This document shows positions 8,884-54,745 of a DNA stretch of 64,000 nt, piece by piece. The DNA comes from Thermoleophilum album (GTDB taxonomy: Bacteria; Actinomycetota; Thermoleophilia; Solirubrobacterales; Thermoleophilaceae). Every line of letters starts with the position of its first letter. The stretch's first letter is position 1. Both the position numbers and the translations under genes were made by a program. A model generated the notes under the pieces. That model worked only from the letters and a program-made list of their open reading frames with translations. It had not been told where the DNA came from and ran no database searches. The stretch covers positions 1,054,001 to 1,118,000 of the forward strand of contig NZ_FNWJ01000001.1 of assembly GCF_900108055.1 (NCBI RefSeq), written 5' to 3'.

Positions 8884-8910
8884 ATCTCAACCTCAACCTC
8901 AGCTTGAGAT
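8884..8910. promoter_or_regulatory. Inverted repeat, possible MerR-type operator
   Basis: Perfect 7-bp arms ATCTCAA and TTGAGAT separated by 13 bp. The inner part reads CCTCAA-N7-TTGAGA, reminiscent of SoxR/MerR-type operators (canonical SoxR box is CCTCAA-N6-TTGAGG). It is 56 bp upstream of the -10 box of the coiled-coil gene, further than a MerR regulator would normally bind. Function unproven. Confidence 0.35.
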
Positions 8911-8977: not shown

Positions 8978-9421
8978 ATGGCACCACAGGGACAACGACA
9001 GGGGATGCTGGAGCGATTGTCGCGTCAGGGCGAGGAAGCGCTGGGGAAGGTGGTCGAGGAGATTCTCGCCAACCCTGTTCTCAGCGCAGCCGTCTCGCGC
9101 GCACTGGAGGCGCGAGAGAAAGCCGCCCAGGCGCAAGAGGTGGCGATGGGCGCCCTCAATCTGCCTTCTGCGGCCGACATCGAGCGCCTGACACGGCGCG
9201 TTCGAGCTGTCTCGCAAAGGCTCGAAGGGATCGAAGATCTGCTCGACCGAATCGACGAGCGTCTGGCCTCCATCGAGCAACGTCTCGCCGAGTCGGCGGG
9301 CAGCCAGCGCGCCCAGCGCGCGTCGCAAAGCAAGGGGGGCGCCAGGAGCCGACGGGCGTCGACCTCGCGCCCTGCTACCGGCACCGGTGGCGCGGGCGGC
9401 GAGAGCGCAAGGAGCAGCTGA
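8978..9421 (+). CDS. Coiled-coil phasin-like protein
   Basis: 147 aa. ATG 8978 was chosen because it matches the leaderless promoter and removes an unlike arginine-rich extension. The N-terminal half (GEEALGKVVEEILANPVLSA) and the heptad-rich middle (SQRLEGIEDLLDRIDERLASIEQRL, about residues 75-105) predict amphipathic helices forming a coiled coil. The tail is Ser/Arg/Gly-rich and disordered. It resembles the loose family of polyhydroxyalkanoate-granule-associated or phasin-like proteins, and a shorter similar protein is encoded at 10289. A role on lipid or PHA granules is only an inference; scaffold functions are equally possible. Confidence 0.72.
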   Translation: MAPQGQRQGMLERLSRQGEEALGKVVEEILANPVLSAAVSRALEAREKAAQAQEVAMGALNLPSAADIERLTRRVRAVSQRLEGIEDLLDRIDERLASIEQRLAESAGSQRAQRASQSKGGARSRRASTSRPATGTGGAGGESARSS

Positions 9422-39552: not shown

Positions 39553-40116
39553 ATGGAGCGCGACGAGAAGATCACAATCGACGGCGACGGTGCCAACTGC
39601 CAGTTCGAGGTCGGTGACAACGTCGTTTACCCGCACCACGGAGCCGGCAAGGTGGTGCGCAAGGAGGTCAAGGAGGTGCTCGGCGAAACTCGCGAGTACC
39701 TGACGATCAAGATCCTCCACAACGACATGACCATGATGGTTCCGACCGAGAACGCCGGCCGGGCCGGCCTTCGGCGAGTGATCAGCGACGAAGAAGTGCA
39801 GCGCGTCCTCTCGGTGCTGCGCGAGGACGTCAGCCAGATGCCGAAAAACTGGAACCGTCGCTTCAAGTACAACCGCGAGAAGATCAAGACCGGCGACGTT
39901 TTCGAGCTCGCCGAGGTGGTGCGCAACCTCGGCATCCGTGAGCTCGAAAAGGGCCTCTCGACCGGCGAGAAGCAGATGTACACGCGCGCCAAGAAGATCC
40001 TCGCGTCGGAGCTGATGTACGCGCTGGACATGGCCGAGGAGGAGGCCGAGGCGCACCTCGAACAGGTCATCCGCGAGGCCCACGCCGAGCGCAACGGCGC
40101 TGCCGCAACGGCCTGA
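39553..40116 (+). CDS. carD: CarD-family transcription regulator
   Basis: RNA polymerase-binding factor that stabilises the open complex at rRNA and other promoters. 187 aa from ATG 39553. GGAGGG lies 16 nt upstream, a long spacing; an in-frame ATC at 39541 is better placed but would be a very rare start codon. N-terminal RNAP-interacting (TRCF-like) domain: FEVGDNVVYPHHGAGKVVRKE...MMVPTENAGRAGLR. C-terminal helical DNA-binding domain: FELAEVVRNLGIRELEKGLSTGEKQMYTRAKKILASEL. In actinobacteria carD precedes ispD-ispF, as here. Confidence 0.95.
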   Translation: MERDEKITIDGDGANCQFEVGDNVVYPHHGAGKVVRKEVKEVLGETREYLTIKILHNDMTMMVPTENAGRAGLRRVISDEEVQRVLSVLREDVSQMPKNWNRRFKYNREKIKTGDVFELAEVVRNLGIRELEKGLSTGEKQMYTRAKKILASELMYALDMAEEEAEAHLEQVIREAHAERNGAAATA

Positions 40117-40136
40117 CGGCCGTTCCCGACAGCGCC

Positions 40137-40835
40137 GTGGTGGCCGGGCTGATCGCGGCGGCGGGCCGGGGCGAGCGCCTCGGCGGCGCGCGACCGAAAG
40201 CGCTCGTCGGGCTTGCCGGCAAGCCGCTTGTGGGGCGCGCCGCCGCTGCGATCGCCCCGGCCTGCGATCTCCTGGTCGTCGCGGTGCCAGCCGACGCCGA
40301 TCCCGCACCGTTCCGAGAGGCGCTCGCCGAATGCGGTGTGGTCGCGCGCGTCTGCGCGGGCGGCGCCGCGCGGTCGCTCTCCGTCAAGGCTGCGCTGCGC
40401 GAGGCCGAGGGTGCGGACCGGATCGTCGTCCACGACGCCGCACGTCCGTTCGCGACGCCGGCGCTCGTGCAAGCCTGCCTGGACGCCCTTGCGGAGGCCG
40501 ACGCTGCGATCGCGGCGGTTCCGCTTACCGACACCGTCAAGGAGTCGCGCGACGGTCGGTTCGTCGACCGCACGCTCGACCGCTCGCGGCTTTGGGCTGT
40601 GCAGACGCCACAGGCTTTCAGGCGGTCGGCGCTCGAACGTGCGCTGGCGCGTCCCGACCGGGAGCTCGCCGCCGCCACCGACGAGGCCTCTCTGGTCGAG
40701 CGCGACGGCGGGCGTGTGCGCCTGGTGGCGTCGACACCCCGCAACTTGAAGATCACGGTGCCGGCAGATCTCGAACTCGCAGAGGCGCTGCTGGCTTGCA
40801 GGACGCGGACGGGCGTGGGGAGCGAGCAATGCTGA
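40137..40835 (+). CDS. ispD: 2-C-methyl-D-erythritol 4-phosphate cytidylyltransferase
   Basis: Third step of the MEP isoprenoid pathway: CTP + MEP to CDP-ME. 232 aa from GTG 40137 (40140 also possible). Nucleotidyltransferase motifs: LIAAAGRGERLGGARPKALVGLAGKPL with the catalytic Arg/Lys, VVHDAARPFATPALV, DTVKES, QTPQAFR and DEASLVE. The reaction is completed downstream by ispF; ispE is not in the window. The end overlaps the PHP gene by 7 bases. Confidence 0.94.
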   Translation: MVAGLIAAAGRGERLGGARPKALVGLAGKPLVGRAAAAIAPACDLLVVAVPADADPAPFREALAECGVVARVCAGGAARSLSVKAALREAEGADRIVVHDAARPFATPALVQACLDALAEADAAIAAVPLTDTVKESRDGRFVDRTLDRSRLWAVQTPQAFRRSALERALARPDRELAAATDEASLVERDGGRVRLVASTPRNLKITVPADLELAEALLACRTRTGVGSEQC

Positions 40836-41671
40836 CCGACTACCACCTCCATCTGCGTCCGGACGAGAAAGACGCGCGCGCCGCCGATCACTTCACCGTC
40901 GAGAACGCGAGCCGCTACCGCGAGCGCGCGCGCGAACTTGGGATCGACGAACTCGGTGTCTCGGAGCACGTCCACCGCTTCGCGCAGGCGCTGACGATCT
41001 CCGACCATCCCTGGTATCGGCACTGGGCGAGCGACGATCTCGACGAGTACTGCGCGTTCGTGCGCGAGCAGACGGACCTTCGGCTCGGTATCGAGGTCGA
41101 CTACCTGCCGGGGCGCGAGGATCGCCTCGCGGAGCTAGTCGCGACGCGCGATTTCGACTACGTCGTTGGCTCCGTGCACTTCGTCGACGGTGCGATCGTC
41201 GATCTGCTCGGCGACGAGCGCTGGCGCGACTACGACGTTTGGCGATTGCACGATCCCGACACGGTCTGGCGCCGCTACTTCGAGCTCCTAGCCGACGCGG
41301 TGCGCAGCGGCCTATTCGACATCCTTGCCCACCCCGACCTCGTAAAGGTGCAGGGACGATCGGGACCTTGGCCTGAGCGCGACCCTCGCTACTACTGGGA
41401 GCCTACGCTCGAGGCGCTCGCCGAAAGCGACGTCGCGGTCGAGTTCTCGACCGCGGGCTGGCGCAAGCCGATCGGCGAGCCCTACCCCGATGAGGGGTTC
41501 TTGCGCGAGTGCCTGGCGCTCGGCCGGGTGGTAGCGCTCTCGTCGGACGCGCACCGACCCGACCAGATCGGCTACCGCTACGACGAGGCGGTGGAGCGTT
41601 TGGGAGCCCTCGGGGTGGAGCGCATCGCGGTTTTTGAGCGGCGCAGCCGACGCCTCGAGCCGCTCGGGTGA
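40829..41671 (+). CDS. PHP-domain phosphoesterase (histidinol-phosphatase-like)
   Basis: 280 aa from ATG 40829, overlapping the ispD stop. PHP metal-binding motifs: TDYHLHLRPDE (N-terminal HxH), GVSEHVHRF, GIEVDYLPG, VVGSVHFVDG, ILAHPDLVK and SSDAHRPDQIGYRY. These are arranged as in HisK-type histidinol phosphatases, which form L-histidinol. No other histidine genes are nearby, so the substrate may be another phosphomonoester. Placement between ispD and ispF suggests expression with isoprenoid genes but not necessarily function there. Confidence 0.85.
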   Translation: MLTDYHLHLRPDEKDARAADHFTVENASRYRERARELGIDELGVSEHVHRFAQALTISDHPWYRHWASDDLDEYCAFVREQTDLRLGIEVDYLPGREDRLAELVATRDFDYVVGSVHFVDGAIVDLLGDERWRDYDVWRLHDPDTVWRRYFELLADAVRSGLFDILAHPDLVKVQGRSGPWPERDPRYYWEPTLEALAESDVAVEFSTAGWRKPIGEPYPDEGFLRECLALGRVVALSSDAHRPDQIGYRYDEAVERLGALGVERIAVFERRSRRLEPLG

Positions 41672-41690
41672 GGTCTCTTTGGGGCAAGCG

Positions 41691-42197
41691 ATGGGACGGC
41701 TCAGGAGCGGCCTTGGTTACGACGCTCACCGCCTCGCAAGCGGGCGCCGCCTGGTGCTCGGTGGGGTCGAGATCGAGGGGACTGATCGCGGCCTCGAAGG
41801 CCACTCGGACGCGGACGTCCTGACCCACGCCGTGATCGACGCCTTGCTCGGCGCGGCGGCACTGGCCGACATCGGTGCGCACTTCCCCGACACCGACGAG
41901 CAATACCGGGACGCCGATTCGGTCGAACTCCTGCGCTCGACGCTCGAGCGCGTATGCGACGCAGGCTTCCGACTGGTCAACGTCGACGCCACGGTGATCT
42001 GCGAAGCGCCTCGGCTGGCTCCCTACCGGGATTCCATGCGGCGGCGGTTAGCGGCCGCGCTCGGTCTTTCCGAGCGAGCTGTCAACGTGAAGTTCACACG
42101 TGGCGAGGGGATGGGGTTCGTGGGGCGCGGCGAGGGCATCGCTGCGCTGGCGATCGCGACTCTCGAGGAGGGAGGCGACGGACATGGCACAAGCTGA
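41691..42197 (+). CDS. ispF: 2-C-methyl-D-erythritol 2,4-cyclodiphosphate synthase
   Basis: Cyclises CDP-ME-2-phosphate in the MEP pathway. 168 aa from ATG 41691, chosen because SGLGYDAHRL follows at once. Metal ligands Asp and His in GYDAHRL and His in GHSDADVLTHAVIDALLGAA; IGAHFPDTD and the C-terminal VKFTRGEGMGFVGRGEGIAALA complete the family pattern. Trimeric enzyme. The end overlaps the amidase start by 14 bases. Confidence 0.95.
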   Translation: MGRLRSGLGYDAHRLASGRRLVLGGVEIEGTDRGLEGHSDADVLTHAVIDALLGAAALADIGAHFPDTDEQYRDADSVELLRSTLERVCDAGFRLVNVDATVICEAPRLAPYRDSMRRRLAAALGLSERAVNVKFTRGEGMGFVGRGEGIAALAIATLEEGGDGHGTS

Positions 42198-43650
42198 TAC
42201 GACTGCGGGAAAAGGCGGAGCGAGTGTCGAGCGCGGCGCCCCTAGCCAGGTGCCGCCAAGCGGCGACGACCTCGCTTTTGCCGGCGTCGAGGGGATGCTC
42301 GGACTACTGGAACGCCGAGAGCTCTCGGCGCGAGAGCTCACTGAGTACCTACTCCGGCGCATCGATCGCATCGATCGCGAGCTCCGAGCCTTCCGCAGGG
42401 TGTTCGCCGAGCGCGCACTGGCCGAGGCCGAGCAGGCGGACGCGCGGCGCCGCGCCGGCGACCAGCGTCCGCTCCTCGGCTTGCCGATAGCGGTAAAGGA
42501 CGATCACGACGTTGCCGGGGAGCTGACCGCGCTCGGCAGCGCCGCGGTCACGCGCCGCGCGCGCGAGGACTGCGAACTGGTGCGTCGCCTGCGCTCAGCG
42601 GGCGCGATCGTCATCGGCAAGACCAACGTCCCCGAGCTGCTCTCGATCGGCGCGACCGAGTCGCTCGCGTGGGGGATCACCAGAAACCCATGGAATCTGG
42701 AGCGCACCCCGGGGGGATCGTCCGGTGGCAGCGCCGCGGCGGTCGCCGCGGGGCTCGTGCCTGCGGCGACGGGTTCGGACGGTGCTGGCTCGATTCGCAT
42801 CCCGGCGGCTTGCTGCCACTTGCTGGGGCTGAAGCCCAGTCGCGACCTCGTTCCCACGGCGCCACTGCGCGAACCCTGGCACGGCATGACCGTCTACGGG
42901 TTTCTCACGCGCACGGTGCGCGACACGGCGTTGCTGTACGACGCCTGCGCGATTCCGCTGCCCGGCGGCTATTCGGCGAAGGCGCGTGCCTGGGTCGAGC
43001 TGGTGGGGGAGGCTCCTGGCAAGCTCAAGGTCGGCGTCTCGACGCGACCGCCGCTCCCCGCCCCGCTCGACGCGACGGTGCGTGCGGCCCTCGAACGAGT
43101 TGTCGAGGAGCTGCGCTCGGCAGGGCACGTCGTCGAGCGGGTCGACATTCCCTATGGGGCATCGCCCCTGCGCGCTGTCGCCCGCTACCTGCGTGGAGTC
43201 GCTGACGACGCGCGGGCAGTCGACCGCCCGGAGCGGTTGCAGCGCCGCACGCGCGGTCTCGCACGGCTCGGGCGGGCCATTCCGGACGCGCTGCTGGCGC
43301 GCGCTCGCGCCGGCGAGCAACGCGACCGCCTGCGGATCGGTCGCCTGTTCGAGCAGTACGACCTGCTCCTGACACCGACCGTCGCGCGTCCGCCGGTCGC
43401 AGCTACTGCCTGGGAGGGGCTAGGTGGCCTGCGGACGCTGCTGTCGATGGGGCAGGTGTACCCCTACACGCCGGTCTGGAACCACGTCGGTTTCGCCGCG
43501 GTAGCAGTGCCGGCCGGGATCGGCGACGACGGTTTGCCGCGCTCCGTGCAACTGGTCGCGCGTGACGGTTGCGAACCGCTCGCGCTGCGCCTCGCCGCGC
43601 AGCTCGAGGAGCGACTCGCGACCGCGCTCCCACGGCCTCCGATCGACTGA
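42184..43650 (+). CDS. Amidase-signature family hydrolase
   Basis: 488 aa from ATG 42184 with a strong GGAGGGAGG ribosome site inside ispF. Catalytic Ser-cisSer-Lys triad: Lys in LPIAVKDDHDV, cis-Ser in RTPGGSSGGSAAAVAAG and nucleophilic Ser in TGSDGAGSIRIPAACC. The C-terminal half is typical (PTVARPPV, NHVGFAAVAVPAG). Hydrolyses a carboxamide of unknown identity. GatA is a relative, but no gatB or gatC is adjacent and the sequence lacks a GatA-specific context. It overlaps ispF but nothing links it to isoprenoid metabolism. Confidence 0.88.
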   Translation: MAQADTTAGKGGASVERGAPSQVPPSGDDLAFAGVEGMLGLLERRELSARELTEYLLRRIDRIDRELRAFRRVFAERALAEAEQADARRRAGDQRPLLGLPIAVKDDHDVAGELTALGSAAVTRRAREDCELVRRLRSAGAIVIGKTNVPELLSIGATESLAWGITRNPWNLERTPGGSSGGSAAAVAAGLVPAATGSDGAGSIRIPAACCHLLGLKPSRDLVPTAPLREPWHGMTVYGFLTRTVRDTALLYDACAIPLPGGYSAKARAWVELVGEAPGKLKVGVSTRPPLPAPLDATVRAALERVVEELRSAGHVVERVDIPYGASPLRAVARYLRGVADDARAVDRPERLQRRTRGLARLGRAIPDALLARARAGEQRDRLRIGRLFEQYDLLLTPTVARPPVAATAWEGLGGLRTLLSMGQVYPYTPVWNHVGFAAVAVPAGIGDDGLPRSVQLVARDGCEPLALRLAAQLEERLATALPRPPID

Positions 43651-43676
43651 GCGCCGCTTGCGGGCTCACCCGCACC

Positions 43677-43682
43677 TACACT
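43677..43682 (+). promoter_or_regulatory. -10 box TACACT of a leaderless transcript
   Basis: TACACT ends 7 nt before GTG 43690 of cysS; no ribosome site is present. Confidence 0.6.
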
Positions 43683-43689
43683 GCGCGCG

Positions 43690-45056
<1,367 letters not shown>

Positions 45057-45060
<4 letters not shown>

Positions 45061-45935
45061 CCCCGGGTCGCGCGTCGCGGCGTGCGTCGTCTCGCACGAG
45101 GCGCCCCGTCTCTGCTGCGAGCGGCGAGCGACAGCGCTCAGGCGGGCCTGAGCGAAGCGGGGTTGAGCGAAGCGGGGCTGAGCGGGCACAGCTAGAGCTA
45201 GCGCACGAGACGGCGTCGCTGGTTTGCGGACGCAACCCGGTGCGGGAGCTTCTGCGAGCAGGGCGGCGCCGCCCGCTGGAGGTGCTGGCGACGCCAAGGC
45301 GCGCGGAAGAGGAGTGGCTCGACCTGGTTCGAGATCGTCTGCGCGTTGTCGAGCGCTCGCTGCTCGACGAGCTCACCGAGATCGAGCACCAAGGCATCGT
45401 GGCGTTCGCCGAGCCTTATCCCTACGTCGATAGCGAGGAGCTGCTGGCGGCCGAAGATGCACTCGTAATCGCCCTCGATCAGGTCCAGGATCCCCGCAAC
45501 CTCGGGGCTGTGTGCCGGGTCGCCGACGCCGTCGGGGCCAGTGGCGTAGTTATCTGCAAGCGGCGCGCCGCCGCTGTGACGAGCGTCGTCTGCCGGGCAT
45601 CGGCGGGGGCCGTCGAGCATGTCCGCGTAGCGCGCGTTGGCTCGCTGCCGCAGTGGCTCGAATGGGCACGCGCAGCGGGGGCTTGGAGCTACCTGGCCGA
45701 CGCCACTGGGGAGCCCTGGCATCGCTTCGACTATCGGGGGCGGGCGGTGCTGGTGTTCGGCAGCGAGGGAGCAGGGTCGCGCAAGACGGTGCGCCGGGCG
45801 GTCGACGCGACGGTGGCCCTGGAGCAGGCCGGGGCTGTTTCGTCGTTGAACGTGGCGACGGCCTGCGCTGCGCTGGCCTACGGGGTGCGTTGGCAGCGTT
45901 GCGGGCTGATCGGCCAGCGGCGCGAGCGCTCCTGA
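45057..45935 (+). CDS. rlmB: 23S rRNA (guanosine-2'-O-)-methyltransferase RlmB
   Basis: SpoU/TrmH-family methyltransferase for G2251 of 23S rRNA. 292 aa. The first about 50 residues are a disordered Arg/Ser-rich extension with ERSG repeats. Residues about 55-130 are the L30e-like substrate-binding domain (LVCGRNPVRELLRAG, IEHQGIVAFAEPY). The trefoil-knot SPOUT domain has ALDQVQDPRNLGAVCRVADAVGASGVVI, VLVFGSEGAGSRKTVRRAVD and SSLNVATACAALAYGVRWQR. Translationally coupled to cysS. The mrnC gene normally between them in Bacillus is missing. Confidence 0.93.
45150..45185 (+). repeat. 15-bp tandem repeat in the rlmB N-terminal extension
   Basis: GAGCGAAGCGGGG(T/C)T units at 45150-45164 and 45165-45179 (identical except one base), followed by a partial third copy. 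In frame they give pentapeptides ERSGV, ERSGA, ERAQ in the disordered N-terminus. Confidence 0.8.
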
Positions 45936-45988
45936 GTCGGGGTCATTGAGCTATCGCCCGCAAGGAATTTTTCAAGCGCAGCCAGCTC

Positions 45989-46018
45989 TTGACATGGCGC
46001 TTGCATTACCGATACGTT
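45989..46018 (+). promoter_or_regulatory. Consensus promoter of sigH
   Basis: Perfect -35 TTGACA (45989-45994) and -10 TACGTT (46013-46018) with an 18-bp spacer; GATACG at 46011 is an alternative (16 bp). Start site near 46025, giving about a 98-nt leader. Confidence 0.7.
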
Positions 46019-46024
46019 GCGTGA

Positions 46025-46045
46025 GGCTCAACCTTAGGTTCAGCC
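46025..46045. promoter_or_regulatory. 21-bp palindrome at the sigH transcription start, likely operator
   Basis: GGCTCAACCT-T-AGGTTCAGCC: 10-bp arms with one mismatch around a single central base at 46035. It covers the predicted start site, a position suited to repression. The cognate regulator is unknown. Confidence 0.6.
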
Positions 46046-46122
46046 AGTCGGCATAGTCCGGCGCCGAGGGGAGGTAGGCGCCACGTGGCTTCACGGGTCT
46101 CGACCCGAGAAAGGAGCTTGCG

Positions 46123-46905
46123 ATGGCAACCACTACCTCTCCAACTGCATCGGCGCGCGCAAAGACCGCAGACCTGCACCAGCAGCAGCTCAGAGAGCAG
46201 CCGCGGGCGGCACTTGCCGAGCGGGCTCGCGAAAGCGACCGCGGGTCAATGCGCATGCTGCGCTCGCGGACAAAGCCTAAGTTTCAGGTAGAGATTGATG
46301 ATCACTACCTGGTGGCGCTAGCTAAAGAGGGGCGACGGGACGCGGTAGAGGCACTGGTTCGCCGCTACCACGGCTTCGTGCGCCTCAAGGCCTCCTCCTA
46401 CTTCCTCGTGGGGGGAGACTCCGACGACCTCGTGCAGGAGGGGCTCCTCGGTCTCTACAAGGCGATTCGCGACTACCGTGCGGACCGCGAATCGAGCTTC
46501 CGCAACTTCGCGGAGCTGTGCATCACGCGCCAGATCATCACGGCGGTTAAGACCTCCACGCGCCACAAGCACGCGCCGCTCAACGAGTACGTCTCGTTCT
46601 CCCAGAGCACCGCGGCGGCCGAGGGCGATCAAACTTTGGACGAGCTCTTGCCCGGCGCCCCCGATCGCGATCCGGCTTCGGAGGTGATCCGCCAAGAAGA
46701 GTTCAACAGCCTCGTCGAGTGCCTCACCACCCGCCTCTCGGAGCTCGAGAGCCGGGTGCTTTCGCTGTATCTGGACGGCCACTCCTACGAGTCGATCGCG
46801 AACCGCATCGGCTGCGACGCGAAGACCGTCGACAACGCGCTCCAGCGGGTGAAGCGCAAGGTCGGTTTGCACCTCGCAGCGCGCGAGGTCGCCGTCGCAG
46901 CCTGA
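46123..46905 (+). CDS. sigH: RNA polymerase sigma factor SigH/Spo0H-like
   Basis: 260 aa from ATG 46123 (AAAGGAG upstream). The first about 60 residues are an extra Ala/Arg-rich segment. The rest aligns with Bacillus SigH: region 2 ASSYFLVGGDSDDLVQEGLLGLYKAIRDY, FAELCITRQIITAVKT, APLNEYVSF, and region 4 SYESIANRIGCDAKTVDNALQRVKRKV. Recognises an alternative promoter class; in Bacillus it governs post-exponential genes and sporulation entry, but the regulon here is unknown. Lies after rlmB as in Bacillus (yacP missing). Preceded by a consensus promoter with a palindrome at the start site. Confidence 0.92.
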   Translation: MATTTSPTASARAKTADLHQQQLREQPRAALAERARESDRGSMRMLRSRTKPKFQVEIDDHYLVALAKEGRRDAVEALVRRYHGFVRLKASSYFLVGGDSDDLVQEGLLGLYKAIRDYRADRESSFRNFAELCITRQIITAVKTSTRHKHAPLNEYVSFSQSTAAAEGDQTLDELLPGAPDRDPASEVIRQEEFNSLVECLTTRLSELESRVLSLYLDGHSYESIANRIGCDAKTVDNALQRVKRKVGLHLAAREVAVAA

Positions 46906-47005
46906 GTCGGGACTCCCCGTCGACGGTGCGCGCCTCGTGCGCCCCTCGACTCTGCCGCGCCTCTGCGTCAGCCAGGCGCTGGGCAGCGGTACGCTCAGGA
47001 AGGAT

Positions 47006-47078
47006 GCCCGCCTAGCTCAATTGGTAGAGCGCTGCACTTGTAATGCAGGGGTTCCCGGTTCGAGTCCGGGGGCGGGCT
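47006..47078 (+). tRNA. tRNA-Thr (anticodon TGT)
   Basis: 73-nt cloverleaf: acceptor stem GCCCGCC/GGCGGGC, D-arm AGCTCAATTGGTAGAGC, anticodon stem CTGCA/TGCAG around loop CTTGTAA (anticodon TGT, reads ACA), T-arm CCCGG-TTCGAGT-CCGGG, discriminator T. CCA is not encoded. A TACGCT -10 box lies at 46990-46995, 10 nt before the 5' end. Confidence 0.96.
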
Positions 47079-47173
47079 TTGCCCTGTTGTGCGGGCGGCC
47101 GCGATGAGGGCCACGGGTGGCGCGCAGCGCGCCTGCGTAACCGGTGCCCTTGCCGTGGGTAGCGGGTACTTGC

Positions 47174-48967
47174 ATGGCCCCTGCGAACGACAGCTCCACA
47201 GTGAGCGCGCCAGCGCCAGCGTCCGCGCGGCTGCCGGCTGGCGCGGGCGGTTCGGGGGCAGCCGATGAGCCCGCTGCAGGAGCCGATCGCCGGGCGGGTC
47301 GCCAGCCGACCAGCGACAAGCGCCTAAGACGCGACGAGCACTTACGACGCCTGCACGAGGCGACCCGGCGGCGCGGCGTCAACAAGGTTGTGTACTGGCT
47401 CACGCGGGTGGTGCTGCAGCCGCTGATCCACGCCTGGTTTCGACTCGAGCGGATCGGTCACCGCCACATACCCGACGGCCCGGTAATTCTCGCCGCTAAC
47501 CACCGCAGCTTCCTCGACCCCTTCGTGATCGGCTGCTGCCTGCGTCGACCGGTCTATTTCGTGGCTAAACGCGAGCTCTTCGAACGGCGTTTCTGGGGGC
47601 GGTACCTGAACTGGCTCGGTGCTTTCCCAGTACGGCGCGGCGAGTCCGACGAGGACGCCGTCGAAACCGCTCTCGCCCTTTTGCGCAGAGGACAGGCGGT
47701 GGTGATCTTCCCGGAGGGCACCCGTATCCGTCACGGCTCCTTGGGCAAGCCGCGGCGCGGCGTTGGCAGACTGGCGCTGGAATCGGGGGCGCCGGTAGTG
47801 CCGATCGCCGTCACCGGCACCGAGCGGGCGCGGCGCGGCTTGCTGGTGCGGCCCGTGAAGGTGCGCGTTCGTTGCGGGGCTCCGCTGCGCTTCCCCCGCG
47901 TCGAGCGTCCCTCGCCGGCCCTCGCGCGAGCGGTGCTCGAGCGGATCTGGCCACACATTCAGGTGCAGTGGGAGTGGCTCGGCGGCGACCCGCCCTTGCG
48001 CAGTGCAATGGTGCTCGGCGACGGAGCGAAAGCGGAAGCGCTCGCCGCGCTGCTCGGGCAGGCTGGTCTCAACGTGGCGCGCGGCCCGCAGGTGGAGCCG
48101 GAGGATCGAACGACCCGCGGGCGGGCGGTCGCGCGGGCGGTCGCGCGGGCCGGCTCGCGACTGCGCGGGCGGACGCTCGAGCCGTCCGGGAGCCCCGACC
48201 TCCTCGTGCTGGCCGCGTCCGCCCAGGCGCTCCCACAGTTGACGGCCGAGGCTGCGCAAGTCGTCGACGAGCGCACGCTAGTGCTGGTCGCCGCGAAGGG
48301 GCTCGTGCCGCCCCTCGGCACGACGCCGGCGGCCTACGTCTCGGAACGCTTGCGTGCGCGCGCCGTCGTCGCTCTCGGCGGGCCGGTACGTGCCGACGAC
48401 ATCGCGGCCGGTGAAGCCTGTGCGGTGGTCGCCGCCACCGACCCCGGTGCGCGTGCGCGCGTCGCGCAGGCGCTGCGCTCCGGTGGTCTCGAGGTCGAGG
48501 AGTCGAGCGACGTGGTCGGCGTCGAGCTCGCCGGCTGTGCGAACGGGGCGGCGGCGCTGGCGGCTTTGGCGGTCGGCGACGAGCGCGTGGCCCTCGCTGG
48601 TGCCGCGGCCGCACGGGTGTTCGAGGAGGTCGAGCGCCTGGGCCGCCAGCTCGGCGCCCGCCCGGACACGTTCGCGGGGCTAGCTGGTGCCGGTGAGTTG
48701 GTCAGCGCCGTGCTGTCGCGGCCCACCGCCGACGGCTGCGAGCAACCAGAGGACGCCGAGAACACATGCAGCCGCGGAGCGGCAGGGGCTCACCAGTTTC
48801 CCGCCGGTGCGCTCGAGGCGATCGCCCTCCTCGAGGGGCGCATGCGCCGAGCGGGCGTCGACGCACCGGTAACGCGGTCGCTGCGCGCGCTTCTCGAGGG
48901 TCGCATCGATCGCGCGCGTTGGCTGGAGCGGGTTCGCAGACCGCGGCCCACGCAACGCGCAGCCTGA
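47174..48967 (+). CDS. Fusion: 1-acylglycerol-3-phosphate acyltransferase + GpsA-like domain
   Basis: 597 aa from ATG 47174. Residues 1-65 are a disordered Ala/Arg-rich leader. Residues about 75-270 are a PlsC acyltransferase with the exact NHx4D motif (NHRSFLD, H110-D115), FPEGTR (179-184) and VVPIAVTGTERA. Residues about 277-597 resemble NAD-dependent glycerol-3-phosphate dehydrogenase: MVLGDGAKAEALAALL (degenerate Rossmann loop), GGPVRADDIAAGEACAVVAATD, VVGVELAGCANGAAALAAL, DTFAGLAGAGELVSAVLS. The catalytic Lys of GALKNV appears as Asn456 in GCANGA. The second domain may be inactive or regulatory. The enzyme should act in phosphatidic acid synthesis at the membrane. Confidence 0.85.
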   Translation: MAPANDSSTVSAPAPASARLPAGAGGSGAADEPAAGADRRAGRQPTSDKRLRRDEHLRRLHEATRRRGVNKVVYWLTRVVLQPLIHAWFRLERIGHRHIPDGPVILAANHRSFLDPFVIGCCLRRPVYFVAKRELFERRFWGRYLNWLGAFPVRRGESDEDAVETALALLRRGQAVVIFPEGTRIRHGSLGKPRRGVGRLALESGAPVVPIAVTGTERARRGLLVRPVKVRVRCGAPLRFPRVERPSPALARAVLERIWPHIQVQWEWLGGDPPLRSAMVLGDGAKAEALAALLGQAGLNVARGPQVEPEDRTTRGRAVARAVARAGSRLRGRTLEPSGSPDLLVLAASAQALPQLTAEAAQVVDERTLVLVAAKGLVPPLGTTPAAYVSERLRARAVVALGGPVRADDIAAGEACAVVAATDPGARARVAQALRSGGLEVEESSDVVGVELAGCANGAAALAALAVGDERVALAGAAAARVFEEVERLGRQLGARPDTFAGLAGAGELVSAVLSRPTADGCEQPEDAENTCSRGAAGAHQFPAGALEAIALLEGRMRRAGVDAPVTRSLRALLEGRIDRARWLERVRRPRPTQRAA

Positions 48968-48993
48968 GCACGGCGGGCTAGCCTCGCTACTCG

Positions 48994-49608
48994 GTGAGCG
49001 CAAGTCGCCCCTCGAAAGCCGAGCTCGACCGTGAATTCAGCGAGCTCTACCGGACGCACCTCCGCGACGTCTACAGCTACGCCTACTACCGCGTCGGCAA
49101 TCATCACGACGCCGAGGATCTGACCGAGCAGACTTTTCTGCAGGCTTACCGTCACTACGAGCGTGCACGCGCGGAAGCCAACGGACGACCGCTGCGGCCC
49201 TGGTTGATCCGCATCACCCACAACCTGGCCGCCAACTGGTTCCGCGACCGCAGCCGCCGACCACAAACTCCGCTCGAGGACGCGCAACCACTGGTGGCAC
49301 CGCACGGCACCGAGGAGCTGGCAGAGGAACGGGCCGACGCCCGCGAAGTGCTCGCGTGTGTGGCGCAGCTCCCCGAAGACCGCCGTGATGCGTTGGTCAT
49401 GCGCTTCGCGTTGGGCATGGACAATCGCGAGATCGCGCGTGCGCTCGGCCGCTCGGAAGGGGCCACGAAGGTGCTGCTCCACCGTGCGATCCGGCAGCTC
49501 GAGCGGCTTCTAGCGGAGCGACGAGGGGCGCCCGAGGGGCGCGCTGGGGAAGCGTCGCAGGGGGACGCTGCCAGCGCCGGAGACGCCTTGAGCGAGAAAG
49601 GGGCGTAG
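48994..49608 (+). CDS. ECF-type RNA polymerase sigma factor
   Basis: 204 aa from GTG 48994. Region 2: EFSELYRTHLRDVYSYAYYRVGNHHDAEDLTEQTFLQAYRHY, followed by PWLIRITHNLAANWFRDRSRR. Region 4: LPEDRRDALVMRFALGMDNREIARALGRSEGATKVLLHRAIRQLERLL. There is no region 3 or 1, so it is an extracytoplasmic-function type sigma factor. The C-terminal about 30 residues are disordered. Followed after 50 bp by a small single-pass membrane protein that could be its anti-sigma factor. The gap contains the palindrome TTCGGCGCCGAA at 49612-49623. Confidence 0.9.
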   Translation: MSASRPSKAELDREFSELYRTHLRDVYSYAYYRVGNHHDAEDLTEQTFLQAYRHYERARAEANGRPLRPWLIRITHNLAANWFRDRSRRPQTPLEDAQPLVAPHGTEELAEERADAREVLACVAQLPEDRRDALVMRFALGMDNREIARALGRSEGATKVLLHRAIRQLERLLAERRGAPEGRAGEASQGDAASAGDALSEKGA

Positions 49609-49658
49609 CGTTTCGGCGCCGAAGAGGTAGTTACCTGCGAGGTACCTAGGAAGCGAAG

Positions 49659-50021
49659 ATGGGTGAAGCCGACGTCGAAGCTCTACTGCGCGGGGCGCTG
49701 CGACCGGTCGAGCCGCAAGAGAGCCTTGCCGAGCGCCTCGAGCGGCGGCTAGTCGGTGTCCGCAGCGCGGCCGTCGACGAGCTCGCCGACTGGGAACTGC
49801 GGGCGCTGCGCGACCCGCGTCGCTGGCTTCGGGCGCTCATCGCCGTGATCTGTGGGGCGGCGGCAGCGACGGCCCTGGCCTTGCTGCGGCTGCATCAGGC
49901 TCGTCGCTCGCGGCCGCGGGGGCTCGCCGCGACCGCTGCGCGTTTGCGGTCGCAGATACGGCGCCCGCTCGAGCGCACGCAACTGCGCCGCGCGCGCGGG
50001 CGCCGGCGCATCATCGCCTGA
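49659..50021 (+). CDS. Small single-pass membrane protein next to ECF sigma
   Basis: 120 aa from ATG 49659 (GGAAGCGAAG upstream). N-terminal about 55 residues are acidic/amphipathic (EADVEALLRGALRPVEPQESLAERLERRLVGV), then one membrane segment (ALIAVICGAAAATALALL, about residues 59-76) and an Arg-rich tail (RRARGRRRIIA). There is no zinc-binding HxxxCxxC anti-sigma motif. Layout and position just after the sigma gene suggest a membrane-anchored anti-sigma-like partner, but no homology was recognised. Confidence 0.6.
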   Translation: MGEADVEALLRGALRPVEPQESLAERLERRLVGVRSAAVDELADWELRALRDPRRWLRALIAVICGAAAATALALLRLHQARRSRPRGLAATAARLRSQIRRPLERTQLRRARGRRRIIA

Positions 50022-50042
50022 AATCGTTTCCGCAAAGCGAGC

Positions 50043-50070
50043 GGGGGCGCCCCATCGCGGCGGCGCCCCC
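50043..50070 (+). terminator. GC-rich hairpin after the small membrane protein gene
   Basis: GGGGGCGCC (50043-50051) and GGCGCCCCC (50062-50070) form a perfect 9-bp stem with a 10-nt loop, 21 bp after the stop codon. No U-run follows. Confidence 0.5.
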
Positions 50071-50315
50071 ACCCCAAAGATTGCCGCGGGCGCAGCGACC
50101 CGGAAGTCCCGGAACCAACCTCGCACTCGGCCCGCGGTGTAGCCCCCACATTGCGAATCGACGCCCCCGACGCGCGCTTGAGGATGCTCGAGTCCCGTGG
50201 ACGTTTGTTCGATGGGGCCTCATCGGCCGCGGTCGCCGTCGCCTCAAGCACTCCTTCGCGGTCTGGACGAATGTCGTAGGTCAAGGGTTACCGGCACCTG
50301 ACGATCAACACCCCA

Positions 50316-50339
50316 GGTGATTCAACTGGACGAATCACC
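50316..50339. promoter_or_regulatory. Inverted repeat upstream of the small membrane protein/glycosyltransferase genes
   Basis: GGTGATT-N10-AATCACC, perfect 7-bp arms, 19 bp before the ribosome site of the gene at 50372. Could be an operator or a leader hairpin controlling access to the ribosome site. Confidence 0.4.
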
Positions 50340-50371
50340 CAGCCCCCAGGGAGAGTGCAAGGAGGTCCCCC

Positions 50372-50623
50372 ATGTCGATCCGAGCTGTCGGCGGCGGCGG
50401 TGCCGTGGCAGCCGCTGCGATAGTCCCGCCCGAACTCAGCGAGCTGTCGCTGACGGCGATCGCAGCGTTTACGTGCGTTGCGCTGTTGGTCTTCCTCGCG
50501 GTGGGCGAGCTTGCCCGCCGGGCGGAGGAACGCGGGGTCGGTGATGGCGACCTGATCAGTCCAGAGCAGGATCGCCAGGCACTCCTCGAGCGTGTAGCTG
50601 CGCTCGAGGAACACAGCACGTAG
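50372..50623 (+). CDS. Small membrane protein, unknown
   Basis: 83 aa from ATG 50372 with a strong AAGGAGG ribosome site 7 nt upstream. One central membrane segment (LTAIAAFTCVALLVFLAVGEL, about residues 27-47), preceded by a Gly/Ala-rich start. A charged C-terminal helix follows (LISPEQDRQALLERVAALEEH). No family recognised. It precedes the glycosyltransferase gene by 36 bp on the same strand, so it may be an accessory subunit of that membrane enzyme. Confidence 0.6.
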   Translation: MSIRAVGGGGAVAAAAIVPPELSELSLTAIAAFTCVALLVFLAVGELARRAEERGVGDGDLISPEQDRQALLERVAALEEHST

Positions 50624-50659
50624 CCGCCCGCACAAGCGACCGCCGAGCTCGGTAACGAG

Positions 50660-51877
50660 GTGCTGCCCGACCTCCTACCTCCGCTCGCGGTCGTACTCCT
50701 ACTGTTGGCGTTCGACCTCCAGAACGCCTTCGTTCCGTTCTCACGCGTGGTGCTCCGGCCTAGCGGCCGGAGCACCCGCGATTACACAATTGTCATCCCG
50801 TTGTTTGGCGATCCCTCGTATTGGCGGAATCGCCATCACCTCGAGCCTTACAAGGATCGTGTGTTGCTCGCCTGCAACATCGACACCGTTGCGATGGCCG
50901 AGTTCGCCGACCGGGTCGAAGCTGAGGGGTGGCGTGTCTTCAGATCTTGGGACGACCACCGCATCAGTCCTGTGCAAACCCTGGCCAAAGCGCTGTCGGT
51001 GATCGACACGACCTGGATGATGCGGCTCGATGGTGATTCGTATCCGGAAGACGATTTCGGCAAGGCCGTTGCCGCAGCCGAGGACGCCGATGCCGACCTT
51101 TGCTCGGTGAAAGTCTTGCCGTCGCGCCGACACACGGTCGCCGAGCACCTGCAAGGCGTCGAGTACGACCTCGCGATGCGCAGCCGCCACCTGCGGCCAT
51201 GGGCGACCTCCGGTGCCTGCATGATCGCTCGCACCGAGGCCATGAAGGCGATCATGAGGCGGCACTCGATGTGGTTCTTCGGGGAGGACATCGAGACCGG
51301 CGTGATCGCCGAGCAACTACAGATGCGTGTGCGCCACATCGACTTCGTCGTTTACACGGAAGTGCCCTCGACTCTCCGCGAGCTCTTCAGGCAGCGGAAA
51401 GGCTGGTGGGCTGGTCATTTTCAACTCGCCGTTTTGAACATCGAGCAACAACTGCGTTTCCCGGCGCTCGCCGTTTACAACCTCTGCCTGATCTACATCC
51501 TCTTCGAGGGCAAGTGGCACGACATCTTCGTATACACACACGTGTTACCAACGCTGATCCTCGTCTACACGCTGATGACCACCATCACCAACTGGCCGGT
51601 GCGATCACGCTGGCTCATCGCCTTTCCCTACTACTCGCTCATTCAAGTGCTCGTAATGCCGCCCGTCGGTGCCTATTACTACGTGCGCACACGCATCCGT
51701 TGGAAACGCCCCGGGCGGTACCGCATCGAGTTCTTCCGCACCCGCCCGGGTGCTCCGCGGATGGTTCGACCCCTGGACTTCAAGGGTCGGCTCGTGCGTT
51801 ACGCCTGGCACGCGGCCTTCATCGCTGCGATCCTCTCGCCGCTCGCCGTGCTGATCGCGGGGATCGAACTCCTCTGA
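50660..51877 (+). CDS. Membrane glycosyltransferase, family 2
   Basis: 405 aa from GTG 50660 (weak ribosome site). One N-terminal membrane segment (about residues 5-20), then a cytosolic GT-A domain and three or four C-terminal segments (LCLIYILFEG, VLPTLILVYTLMTTI, AFIAAILSPLAVLIAG). Catalytic motifs: DGD in MRLDGDSYPE, the general base region FFGEDIETG, and RQRKGWWAGH, a variant of the QxxRW motif of processive GT2 enzymes such as cellulose and hyaluronan synthases. Product unknown, probably an exopolysaccharide. Base composition is visibly lower in GC than its neighbours, suggesting acquisition by transfer. Confidence 0.82.
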   Translation: MLPDLLPPLAVVLLLLAFDLQNAFVPFSRVVLRPSGRSTRDYTIVIPLFGDPSYWRNRHHLEPYKDRVLLACNIDTVAMAEFADRVEAEGWRVFRSWDDHRISPVQTLAKALSVIDTTWMMRLDGDSYPEDDFGKAVAAAEDADADLCSVKVLPSRRHTVAEHLQGVEYDLAMRSRHLRPWATSGACMIARTEAMKAIMRRHSMWFFGEDIETGVIAEQLQMRVRHIDFVVYTEVPSTLRELFRQRKGWWAGHFQLAVLNIEQQLRFPALAVYNLCLIYILFEGKWHDIFVYTHVLPTLILVYTLMTTITNWPVRSRWLIAFPYYSLIQVLVMPPVGAYYYVRTRIRWKRPGRYRIEFFRTRPGAPRMVRPLDFKGRLVRYAWHAAFIAAILSPLAVLIAGIELL

Positions 51878-51954
51878 CAGGGAGCCGGTTAACCAAGCGA
51901 TTAGCCCCGCCGCACGGGTCGGCGGCTGGTGCGAGCGAGGCCGGGACGGAAAAG

Positions 51955-51987
51955 GATCGGCCGAGCCACGGCGTGGGTCGGCCGATC
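51955..51987 (-). terminator. Intrinsic terminator of the DUF4383 gene
   Basis: GATCGGCCGA (51955-51964) and TCGGCCGATC (51978-51987) form a perfect 10-bp stem, extended inside by CCAC/GTGG. Read on the minus strand the stem is followed by CCTTTTCC, a U-run. Lies between the convergent glycosyltransferase and DUF4383 genes and may act in both directions. Confidence 0.75.
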
Positions 51988-52010
51988 GAACCCTTCGTCT
52001 TGACCCTGGT

Positions 52011-52430
52011 TCAGTGCTGAGCTGCGGTGCTCGGGCTCTCCGTTGCCGGAGTGGCAAGGAAGGCGCCGAGCCCGACCAGGCCGATCGCCAGGTGCAGGAC
52101 GTTGTCCTCGGTGTTGACCGGGATGAAGCCCAGAATCGACTCGCCCGAGCCGATCAGGAATCCCCACACCGCGACGATCACGTAGACCACGCCGAGCAGG
52201 CCAGCGTAGCCCCTCGCGTACGCGTAGTTGCCGGCCGCGGCCAGGCCGAGTACGCCGGTCGCGATGTGTACGACGTTGTGCCAGCCGTTCACGTCGAGGA
52301 TCCCGAGGACCGCGTCGACATCACCGGGAGACCCGAAGCTGGACGAGTAGAAGAACCCGATGATGCCGGCCAGGGTCAGCACGGCACCGAATACGAGCCC
52401 GTACAGCTGAGCAGGTGAACGCCCTTGCAT
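52011..52430 (-). CDS. DUF4383 membrane protein
   Basis: 139 aa from ATG 52430, with GGAGG about 10 nt upstream. Four membrane segments: LYGLVFGAVLTLAGIIGFFY, the middle stretch around NGWHNVVHIATGVLGLAAAG, GYAGLLGVVYVIVAVWGFLIG and DNVLHLAIGLVGLGAFLAT. The repeated H-N/H-L pattern in membrane helices (HNVVHI, DNVLHLAIG) is characteristic of DUF4383 proteins, common in actinobacteria and of unknown function. It has its own terminator, and a perfect palindrome lies in its upstream region. Confidence 0.85.
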   Translation of the reverse strand: MQGRSPAQLYGLVFGAVLTLAGIIGFFYSSSFGSPGDVDAVLGILDVNGWHNVVHIATGVLGLAAAGNYAYARGYAGLLGVVYVIVAVWGFLIGSGESILGFIPVNTEDNVLHLAIGLVGLGAFLATPATESPSTAAQH

Positions 52431-52450
52431 CGTTTCTATACCTCCTACCT

Positions 52451-52465
52451 CTCGAAACTTTCGAG
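52451..52465. promoter_or_regulatory. 15-bp perfect palindrome upstream of DUF4383
   Basis: CTCGAAA-C-TTTCGAG, 7-bp perfect arms around one base, 20 bp upstream of the DUF4383 start codon and beyond its ribosome site. Position and symmetry suit a repressor operator; a leader hairpin is the alternative. Confidence 0.5.
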
Positions 52466-52527
52466 TTGGACCGTTCCTAAAGCCCTATACGCGTTGACCC
52501 CATGATTGGTTGCCCGCCGGTGATCGT

Positions 52528-52533
52528 TACGCT
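52528..52533 (+). promoter_or_regulatory. -10 box TACGCT of a leaderless transcript
   Basis: TACGCT ends 7 nt before GTG 52541 of the rhomboid gene; TTGGTT at 52506-52511 is a plausible -35 (16-bp spacer). Confidence 0.65.
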
Positions 52534-52540
52534 GCCGTAA

Positions 52541-53356
52541 GTGGCCTTCTGCTATCGCCATCCTCGCCGCGAAACCGGCGTCTCCTGCTCGAGTTGCGGT
52601 CGCGCGATCTGCCCCGAGTGCATGACCAGCACGCCGGTCGGCATGCGCTGCCCGGACTGCGCGGGTGCGACCACGCGCGTAGTGCGTGGCGTCGGCGGCG
52701 GCGCGCCGCGGGTCACGTACTTGTTGATCGCCTTGAACGTGCTGGTGTTTGCCGGGGAACTGCTCGGCGGCGGTGCGGCCACCGGTACCGGCGGTGCGGG
52801 CTCGTTGATCGCCGAGCTCGGACTCTCGCGAGCGGCGGTCGGGGCCGGCGAGTGGTGGCGGATCGTCACCGCCGGTTTCCTGCACGGCGGGCTCTTCCAC
52901 CTGGCTTTCAACATGCTCGCCCTGTACGTGCTTGGTGATCTTCTCGAGCCGCGACTCGGCGCTGTCCGCTTCCTCGCCCTCTACCTCGCTTCGCTCGCCT
53001 GCGGCGCGCTCGGAGCGCTGTTGTTGGCTCCGGACGGGGTGACCGTCGGAGCATCGGGAGCCGTTTTCGGGCTGATGGGGGCGGCCGCCGTGATGATGTG
53101 GCGGGACGGGATTCCGCTTTTCGAAAGCGGGCTCGGTGCTTGGATCCTCCTGAACTTGCTGATCACGTTCCTGGTGCCACGAATCTCGATCGGAGGCCAC
53201 CTGGGCGGCCTGCTCGGTGGGGCGCTCGCTGCGTGGTTGCTTGGGCGTGCCGGTAGCGTCGGCCTGCGTGGAAACGCCGCGCTTTTGCCGGTCGTTGCGA
53301 TCGCTGCGCTGGCGGTCGCTGGAGCGATCGCGATATCCAGCGGAACCGGCTACTAG
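52541..53356 (+). CDS. Rhomboid-family intramembrane serine protease with zinc-finger N-terminus
   Basis: 271 aa from GTG 52541. Residues 4-40 form a small zinc-binding module (CYRHP, CSSCGRAICPEC, CPDC). Residues about 57-260 are a six-segment rhomboid with WWRIVTAGFLHGGLFHLAFNM (Asn124), catalytic Ser172 in GASGAVFG and catalytic His220 in IGGHLGGLLGG. It cleaves transmembrane substrates; the substrate is unknown. This B-box-like zinc module before a rhomboid core is common in actinobacteria. Leaderless promoter upstream; convergent with the BtuF-like gene. Confidence 0.92.
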   Translation: MAFCYRHPRRETGVSCSSCGRAICPECMTSTPVGMRCPDCAGATTRVVRGVGGGAPRVTYLLIALNVLVFAGELLGGGAATGTGGAGSLIAELGLSRAAVGAGEWWRIVTAGFLHGGLFHLAFNMLALYVLGDLLEPRLGAVRFLALYLASLACGALGALLLAPDGVTVGASGAVFGLMGAAAVMMWRDGIPLFESGLGAWILLNLLITFLVPRISIGGHLGGLLGGALAAWLLGRAGSVGLRGNAALLPVVAIAALAVAGAIAISSGTGY

Positions 53357-53373
53357 GGGAGTTGCGCGCCCGC

Positions 53374-54270
53374 TTACCCCAGGTCCAGCTCGACCGCCCT
53401 ACCACGTCCGGGACTGGCGATCAGGTGTGGATGGAGCAGGTGGCCGATCAGCTCGATCCCTTCGGCAAGCCGCGGTCCGGGACGCGAGAAGTAGGCCGAG
53501 GCGTCGACGGCGAACACACGCGCCGCGAGCGCTTCGAGGCGGTCACGCAGGCGCAGAGCCTCGCTGCCGGCCTCTTCCACGCGATAGCCGCACGGCATCA
53601 CGACGACGACCTCCGGCCGGGCCGCCCTGACCTCCTCCCAGCTGGCCCGCCGCGACGGTTCGCCCGGCATGCCGAGCACGTCCTCGCCGCCGGCGAGGGC
53701 GATCATCTGAGGAACCCAGTGTCCGGCGATCCACGGCGGGTCGAGCCACTCGAGGGCCACCACTCGCGGCTTGTCGGACGCTTCCGCGGCGGCTCGCTCG
53801 ACCGCTTCCACGCGTCGGCCGAGGGCTTCCAGGAGCTCGTCGGCGCGCTCCTCAACACCGCACGCCTCCGCGAGTCGCCGGATATCAGCGAACGCCTCGC
53901 CAAGCGTCGAGGGGTCGAGAGCGAGCACGCGCGGGCGCGACTCGAGTCGCGCCGCCACCGCCAGCACGTCGTCGTAGGAGACCGCGCAGACCGTGCAGAC
54001 CTCTTGGGTGACGATCAGGTCGGGCTGCAGCGCTGCGAGCAGCGCAGCATCCAACTCGTAGATCGGCTGTCCATGCTCGAGGGTGGCGGCGACGCGCTGG
54101 TCGACCTCGTGCGGCGGTAGCCCCGGCGGCAGTACGCTACGCGTGAGTTGCGGGAGCGCCTGCGCTTCGGGTGGGTAATCGCACTCGTGCGTAACTCCCA
54201 CCACGCAGGAGCCGAGGCCGAGCGCGAACAGCGACTCGGTAGCGGAAGGGACTAGCGAGGCGATCTTCAC
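53374..54270 (-). CDS. Cobalamin-binding (BtuF-like) protein without signal peptide
   Basis: 298 aa from GTG 54270, where VKIASLVPSATESLFALGLG begins. That is the typical mature start of BtuF/FecB-type substrate-binding proteins. Further family features: VVGVTHECDYPPEA, LQPDLIVTQEVCTVC, VVALEWLDPPWIAGHWVPQMI and GEDVLG. No signal peptide or lipobox is seen, so it is probably cytosolic, as in many actinobacterial 'cobalamin-binding proteins' that lack a cognate permease. No B12 transporter gene is nearby. It is divergent from the PCD gene with only 15 bp between start codons, so their promoters must overlap the opposite gene. Confidence 0.82.
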   Translation of the reverse strand: MKIASLVPSATESLFALGLGSCVVGVTHECDYPPEAQALPQLTRSVLPPGLPPHEVDQRVAATLEHGQPIYELDAALLAALQPDLIVTQEVCTVCAVSYDDVLAVAARLESRPRVLALDPSTLGEAFADIRRLAEACGVEERADELLEALGRRVEAVERAAAEASDKPRVVALEWLDPPWIAGHWVPQMIALAGGEDVLGMPGEPSRRASWEEVRAARPEVVVVMPCGYRVEEAGSEALRLRDRLEALAARVFAVDASAYFSRPGPRLAEGIELIGHLLHPHLIASPGRGRAVELDLG

Positions 54271-54285
54271 GGTACGGGAGCAAAC

Positions 54286-54570: not shown

Positions 54571-54604
54571 GCCCGCAGGGGGCGCACCGCCGGGGGGCGC
54601 AAGC

Positions 54605-54628
54605 GGCGCCAGCGGCCCTGCTGGCGCC
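54605..54628 (+). terminator. Hairpin after the PCD gene
   Basis: GGCGCCAGC (54605-54613) and GCTGGCGCC (54620-54628): perfect 9-bp stem, 6-nt loop, 35 bp after the stop; no U-run. Confidence 0.5.
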
Positions 54629-54745
54629 CAACGGCCCTACCCAAGCCGGCGTCGGAGCTTTGTCCGCCCGCCTCGCGGCGGCTAAAGCGCGGCCGCGACT
54701 CGTCGACGACATCCAGCGAGTGGTGCCGCCCGCGTCGCCGCTCGC

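Follow-up and report, generated by a model that had tools for sequence, protein, structure and literature searches.

Within a 64,000-nucleotide stretch of Thermoleophilum album DNA (contig NZ_FNWJ01000001.1, positions 1,054,001 to 1,118,000; this whole stretch is the window below), a gene for a SigH-type sigma factor, sigH, carries on its predicted transcription start a degenerate 25-bp inverted repeat, O1, which is assigned with a probability of roughly 0.87 to FtsR, a MerR-family regulator of ftsZ in actinobacteria (PMC6683498; statements from this paper come from its passages on FtsR and its sites). FtsR very probably binds O1, as judged from the motif, its conservation, its shared targets and the FtsR gene, each established by computation. 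An initial annotation of the window had pointed to a near-perfect 21-bp palindrome below a TTGACA –35 hexamer and a TACGTT –10 hexamer with 18-bp spacing, and had read it as a repressor operator; the placement of palindrome and promoter is confirmed (Table 1), and the operator reading was right in kind, the element being best explained as an operator for a protein at the start site of sigH. The regulator, which had been called unknown, is probably FtsR, and nothing found points to SigH, whose autoregulation had been entertained. The gene itself is a SigH-type sigma factor: its product (46123-46905) exceeds the cut-offs of NCBIfam NF006148 (sporulation sigma factor SigH; 242.6 bits, cut-off 208) and NF006145 (222.1 bits, cut-off 212), but at 230.7 bits stays under the 294.8 required by TIGR02859.

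Taken alone, the symmetry of the palindrome is within chance and unremarkable. It has the form GGCTCAACCT-T-AGGTTCAGCC, with 10-nt arms about a central T at 46035 and 9 of 10 pairs formed; 14 odd-centred palindromes of equal quality occur in the window, compared with a mean of 7.3 (range 2-14) in 20 dinucleotide shuffles. This abundance would suit a chance palindrome without function, an explanation made extremely improbable by the fact that the motif is kept at the equivalent place in families f1-f4 and recurs at other genes. The relatives compared include Conexibacter, Solirubrobacter, Svornostia abyssi, metagenome-assembled genomes of Thermoleophilaceae and Bacterium HR41 (Solirubrobacterales). 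A sigH query found matches in 61/61 genomes at E <= 0.001 (weak in G007, G015 and G029), and the 58 strong loci, that of the Thermoleophilum genome included, were read. Families f1-f4 share a 21-nt block, most commonly AAGGSTGRASTNNAGSTTNAG, that begins shortly 3' of the sigH –10 box; TTGAC stands at the equivalent place in all 53 sigH loci outside family f4 and not in the five f4 loci. Measured in 42 sequences from the approximate –10 box end, the motif center is 14-24 nt away (median 20) on the 3' side; here the distance is 14 nt, with the center at 46032, 3 bp off that of the palindrome. Comparison of the relatives suggests that the functional motif is the degenerate 25-bp repeat; the near-perfect 21-bp palindrome appears to be a form that it takes in this genus (loci L002-L004).

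Sites were scored with a matrix of 77 sigH sites, obtained by thinning 108 sequences to 80 and excluding the three f4 rows among these. Of 80 named loci considered for the set of 108, five were unplaced (L077, L078, L103, L117 and L124), L096, L100 and L134 were left out, and 20 duplicated loci already included; L054 and L056, which have no motif, were excluded from both the matrix and the swap tests described below, and L001, a repeat of L002, was dropped. The best 25-mer, 46020-46044, scores 24.4, and 23.5 when its own family, f1, is removed from the matrix, ranking first in the window either way; R2, a sequence-only model, matches 46022-46043 with 14.0 bits. Other families of the class were represented by 20 genomes, and in 14 of these the sequence upstream of sigH contains a matrix match that beats all 100 shuffles. 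(The dinucleotide shuffles are exact for these upstreams, ftsZ, the ftsR operon, mihF and O2, and approximate for the coiled-coil gene introduced below; the score threshold of 14 was set after the test on that gene.) By eye, several of these other-family matches overlap the tail end of the preceding reading frame, and in L162, L167, L170 and L172 promoter and motif apparently lie within the 3' end of that frame (peptide LEDKVDPETLRRLE and similar).

The assignment to FtsR is based on the published sites and on the presence of the regulator. The C. glutamicum (Corynebacterium glutamicum) ftsZ site, AACCCTAAAGTAAAGGTTGAGGGTA, is described as an imperfect 25-bp inverted repeat, similar sites occur at ftsZ of other actinobacteria, and one has been proposed for ftsZ of M. 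tuberculosis (Mycobacterium tuberculosis; Rv1828) (PMC6683498). Of the 18 constrained positions in the 21-nt sigH consensus, 15 are matched by the C. glutamicum ftsZ site as given there, which over 22 aligned columns has a score of 22.3 in the sigH matrix; the M. tuberculosis site scores 18.1, and neither score is reached by any of 2000 shuffles. The site at C. glutamicum cop1, which overlaps the core promoter of a potentially repressed gene (PMC6683498), scores 19.9. This fit is not circular, because a blind test made use of the published ftsZ site only: when that single site was slid across about 400 nt upstream of sigH in 80 sequences, its best match fell at the motif in 40 (about 1.4 expected by chance), and in a run on every second sequence in 23/40, whereas 200 shuffled queries averaged 2.55 and reached 14/40 at most. 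The cop1 site, used in the same way, found its best match at the motif in 39/80. The Thermoleophilum genome encodes FtsR (G000 C2:454909-455583; 195.5 bits against NF050798, the equivalog model TF_FtsR_Actino, cut-off 150), and a match to FtsR is present in 38 of the 41 genomes searched.

The initial annotation had proposed that a genome search for the palindrome would define a regulon. Near-exact copies are absent, none lying within 3 mismatches elsewhere in the genome, and degenerate copies do exist and define a regulon; reading the lack of other copies as evidence against an operator would therefore have misled. A degenerate search with CTSAACCTNAGGTTSAG allowing up to 3 mismatches returns 21 sites in the Thermoleophilum genome versus 8 for the reversed control, and its single-mismatch site at window position 8892 stands before a gene for a predicted coiled-coil protein; that site scores 21.2, or 22.0 without f1 in the matrix, which places it second in the window. 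Among 24 genomes with a match to this gene, one of them (L212) without an upstream, the remaining 23 upstreams were scored; 15 reach at least 14.7 and 16, that of Thermoleophilum included, beat all 100 shuffles. Matches of R2 led to three further targets: mihF, ftsZ, and an operon of a small protein, a forkhead-associated (FHA) protein and a MerR protein. The MerR protein is FtsR itself (215 bits in L233, NF050798). Gene names other than FtsR, FHA and SigH were assigned by eye from the sequence. In ftsZ upstreams (30 loci from the 41 genomes) 21/30 score at least 14 and 24/30 beat all 100 shuffles, compared with 0/30 for within-gene controls, the highest of which scores 8.2. For the ftsR operon (30 loci of the 38 matches; L321 was too short, and L301 and L305 have short upstreams but were counted) the figures are 19/29 and 24/29, with controls at 0/29. 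For mihF, where 30 loci were taken and 27 scored (L356-L358, a fragment and two weak relatives, were left unscored), 20/27 score at least 14 and all 27 beat 50 shuffles, with controls at 0. In the Thermoleophilum genome the matrix scores are 15.3 at ftsZ, 12.7 at the ftsR operon and 24.1 at mihF, and at the targets the motif occurs on either strand.

Sites of MerR-family regulators resemble one another, and the Thermoleophilum FtsR weakly matches the HspR model (36.1 bits). Both facts would accommodate binding of the sites by another MerR-family protein, HspR for example, or by some other regulator that happens to share ftsZ and the ftsR operon as targets. That explanation is quite unlikely: the HspR match is far under its cut-off of 105, ftsZ and the regulator's own operon are the targets expected of FtsR, and the published sites of FtsR agree with the matrix.

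Several side observations concern the same motif. Single FtsR-like sites stand before mreB-, yidC- and ftsW-like genes in individual genomes (L225, L253, L262), which are possible further members of the regulon. Another FtsR-like site (18.8; window 8153-8177) lies inside a divergent transglycosylase/M23 peptidase gene, some 735 bp away from the site at the coiled-coil gene, and a match in L259 (G006 C72:13193) likewise falls within a similar-looking reading frame. In Thermoleophilum a second, weaker site (10.4; L360:1514-1538, G000 C2) lies between ftsZ and its stronger site. Two R2 matches between convergent genes (G005 C174, E 0.067; G037 C17:44525, E 0.108) are possible terminators and were not included among the targets.

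A different account takes the palindrome to work as RNA, namely as stem P1 of a structured sigH leader that also contains a hairpin P2 with a GGGAGG loop and a stem P3, and that would control translation. Pairing was tested alignment-free, since MAFFT misplaced the 3' arms of P1. In 80 non-redundant leaders the 5' arm of P1 pairs better with its own downstream sequence than with swapped ones (z –8.9, 0/5000), also within f1 (z –5.6), and the sense-strand advantage expected of G-U pairs, larger than for swapped pairs, is equaled in 0/5000 permutations for all 80 leaders, 165/5000 for f1 and 9/5000 for the rest. When pooled, the P2 and P3 arms likewise pair above the swapped level (z –6.5 with 80 leaders, z –4.4 with 67), and a model of the block plus P2 finds one match per genome at E < 1e-8, in genomes of the same order only among 299 genomes of the class searched; those matches adjoin sigH in the genomes that were part of the 61-genome search, and none was found in f4 genomes. 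However, the within-family signal is uneven (P1 in f2, z –0.7; P2 in f1, z 0.0; P3 in f1, z –1.6), one of five pooled control pairs also deviated (z –3.1), and the core pairs of P2 are nearly invariant, with no clear excess over shuffles. The motif occurs, on both strands, also at ftsZ, mihF and the ftsR operon and within coding sequence, and other families of the class have it before sigH with no P2 seen in the upstreams inspected. P1 may moreover be a by-product of the operator, because the half-sites are partly self-complementary. An RNA-only reading was in fact taken first, on the strength of the covariation of the arm with downstream sequence, and was demoted because the same motif recurs before other genes on either strand; a role as RNA is now considered possible, though doubtful, and assignment of O1 to FtsR is preferred.

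The leader retains features of its own. GGGAGG is found in the loop region of P2 in 58/58 sigH loci read, in a search aimed at GGGAGG, and the hairpin is a candidate regulatory RNA or ribosome-binding decoy. The Rfam covariance models gave no match to the leader at E up to 10 in window positions 40000-56000, nor at E up to 5 in the loci of 20 relatives. The target consensus of CsrA is A(N)GGA in a hairpin loop; a CsrA match is present in 54/61 genomes, and CsrA is a doubtful P2 binder: the loop, AGGGGA, does not fit this consensus, and P2 is kept, for example, in L046, L050, L056 and L059, from genomes with no CsrA match. A leader peptide behind GGGAGG was also rejected, no conserved start codon being seen on inspection. 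One P2 pattern matched in 17/31 genomes, with extra unconserved matches in G013 (two) and G014 (one), and in G034 one located away from sigH; copies of P2 elsewhere were dismissed when reversed-pattern controls gave similar stray numbers.

Most relatives carry a second FtsR-like site, O2, in the opening codons of sigH. Over the 200 nt that begin the gene, 58 of 79 sequences score at least 14 (59 after rounding in the codon analysis), with a median of 19.3, compared with 0/79 in each of the next two 200-nt segments; 69/79 beat all 50 dinucleotide shuffles, and 61/79 beat all 100 synonymous resamplings in which the protein was kept and codon usage followed the remainder of the gene. The GC content at third codon positions is 0.36 under O2 sites scoring at least 14 (464 codons), versus 0.926 later in the gene (7540 codons). 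Because O2 beats the synonymous resamplings and third-position GC drops beneath it, selection there seems to act on the DNA itself, and O2 would represent a clear instance in which regulatory DNA overrides codon usage. Reduced GC near start codons has other causes too, but these do not predict the O2 motif. The spacing between O1 and O2 is 126-338 bp (median 160).

A mechanism can be proposed in which an FtsR dimer would bind the 25-bp repeat of O1 across the transcription start, just 3' of the –10 box, and keep RNA polymerase from initiating or escaping; sigH would then be expressed only if FtsR were missing or inactive. In most relatives O2 would reinforce this block, either through bridging or as a roadblock, and FtsR would also act at ftsZ, at its own operon, at mihF and at the coiled-coil gene. 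Repression by O1, which the initial annotation had expected to be tight, is considered fairly probable and is deduced from position, the motif lying over the predicted start and 3' of the –10 box. More tentatively, FtsR may be a hub in Thermoleophilia that joins ftsZ, the nucleoid protein mIHF, its own FHA operon and sigH in one switch, with sigH gated by O1 and O2 together with the leader RNA; in the sigH part of this equally tentative scheme, two operators would bracket the start codon, O2 being written in codons at the expense of codon usage, and the GGGAGG-loop hairpin would accompany a masked ribosome-binding site.

Besides the P1 pairing and G-U signals described above, several results weigh against O1 as a repressing FtsR operator. 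The blind ftsZ-site test misses the motif in 40/80 sequences, and at Thermoleophilum sigH its top match (13/21) lies 4 nt off and on the other strand, the motif itself matching 12/21, tied with two other places. The motif is absent from L054 and L056. The degenerate search shows hardly any excess over its control in two other genomes (G001, 9 versus 8; G002, 9 versus 7), and single R2 matches are weak (best E 0.0016 overall, 0.155 in Thermoleophilum). Upstreams fail to beat shuffles in 6/30 cases for ftsZ, 5/29 for the ftsR operon and 7/23 for the coiled-coil gene, and in Thermoleophilum itself the ftsR-operon site is weak (12.7), as is O2, which scores 11.8 compared with 22.1 in L003 and L004. 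The O1-O2 spacings show no helical phasing, which speaks against a simple loop, and looping of the DNA by phased O1 and O2 was rejected on this ground. Finally, C. glutamicum FtsR is an activator at ftsZ, where its site is centred at –73 (PMC6683498), so that repression of sigH rests on position.

Table 1. Positions of the elements discussed, numbered within the window.
Feature	Position	Strand	Remarks
FtsR-like site before the coiled-coil gene	8885..8909	-	second-best in window; 68 nt before the gene; predicted regulon member
Predicted coiled-coil protein gene	8978..9421	+	147 aa; motif upstream in most relatives examined
–35 hexamer, predicted sigH promoter	45989..45994	+	TTGACA
–10 hexamer	46013..46018	+	TACGTT; 18-bp spacer to TTGACA
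O1, predicted FtsR operator on sigH start site	46020..46044	+	top matrix match in the 64-kb window
Near-perfect 21-bp palindrome	46025..46045	+	GGCTCAACCTTAGGTTCAGCC; overlaps O1
Conserved leader hairpin P2	46060..46082	+	GGCGCC-GAGGGGAGGTA-GGCGCC
Predicted stem P3	46087..46118	+	GGCTTC (46087-46092) with GGAGCT (46113-46118); covers ribosome-binding site
sigH coding sequence	46123..46905	+	260 aa; identified by family model scores
O2, second FtsR-like site inside sigH	46276..46300	+	weak (11.8); strong in most relatives
Predicted tRNA	47006-47078		

The sigH gene is preceded by cysS (445.7 bits, cut-off 340) and an rlmB-like gene, which at 138 bits is under its cut-off of 160 and matches the SpoU methylase family above cut-off; the coiled-coil protein has no Pfam family above its cut-off. 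Two further elements were seen by eye around the sigH promoter. A TGCAA-N-TTGCA palindrome, possibly the site of another regulator, stands directly 5' of the –35 hexamer in several relatives (L049, L051, L053), and CCATAAC occupies the spacer between the hexamers in many f1 and f2 loci (among L005-L059), with the form CCATAA in f4 and neither in the genus of Thermoleophilum nor in f3.

The FtsR operator is as a kind already known; its target here, the lineage and an operator in coding sequence were not met in the literature searched, in which no text joins FtsR and sigH (most papers in subscription journals lay outside the search). To our knowledge, no species mentioned in the passages on FtsR belongs to the Thermoleophilia. 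An orphan palindrome thereby gains a probable regulator, a SigH-type alternative sigma factor is predicted to be under a cell-division regulator in this class of soil and hot-spring bacteria, and the target set makes the role of FtsR testable beyond the genera studied so far.

Comparison with known systems shows both likenesses and differences. As at ftsZ of C. glutamicum and M. tuberculosis, the site is a 25-bp imperfect inverted repeat, the motif is found upstream of ftsZ here too, and the regulator scores above the cut-off of the NCBIfam equivalog model TF_FtsR_Actino. However, unlike the activating C. glutamicum ftsZ site at –73, the site described here is placed on the start of a SigH-type gene, whose coding sequence often holds another, and whereas the cop1 site overlaps the core promoter, the sigH motif begins 3' of the –10 box. 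In the portion of PMC3486894 dealing with S. aureus (Staphylococcus aureus) sigH, a 13-base inverted repeat in the 5'-untranslated region before the start codon is described as lowering expression and is thought to hide the ribosome-binding site; an inverted repeat 5' of sigH is common to both cases, and S. aureus offers a precedent for control by a leader repeat. The S. aureus repeat lies by the start codon, whereas in Thermoleophilum the repeat is found at the predicted start of transcription, and other genes carry it too as a DNA motif.
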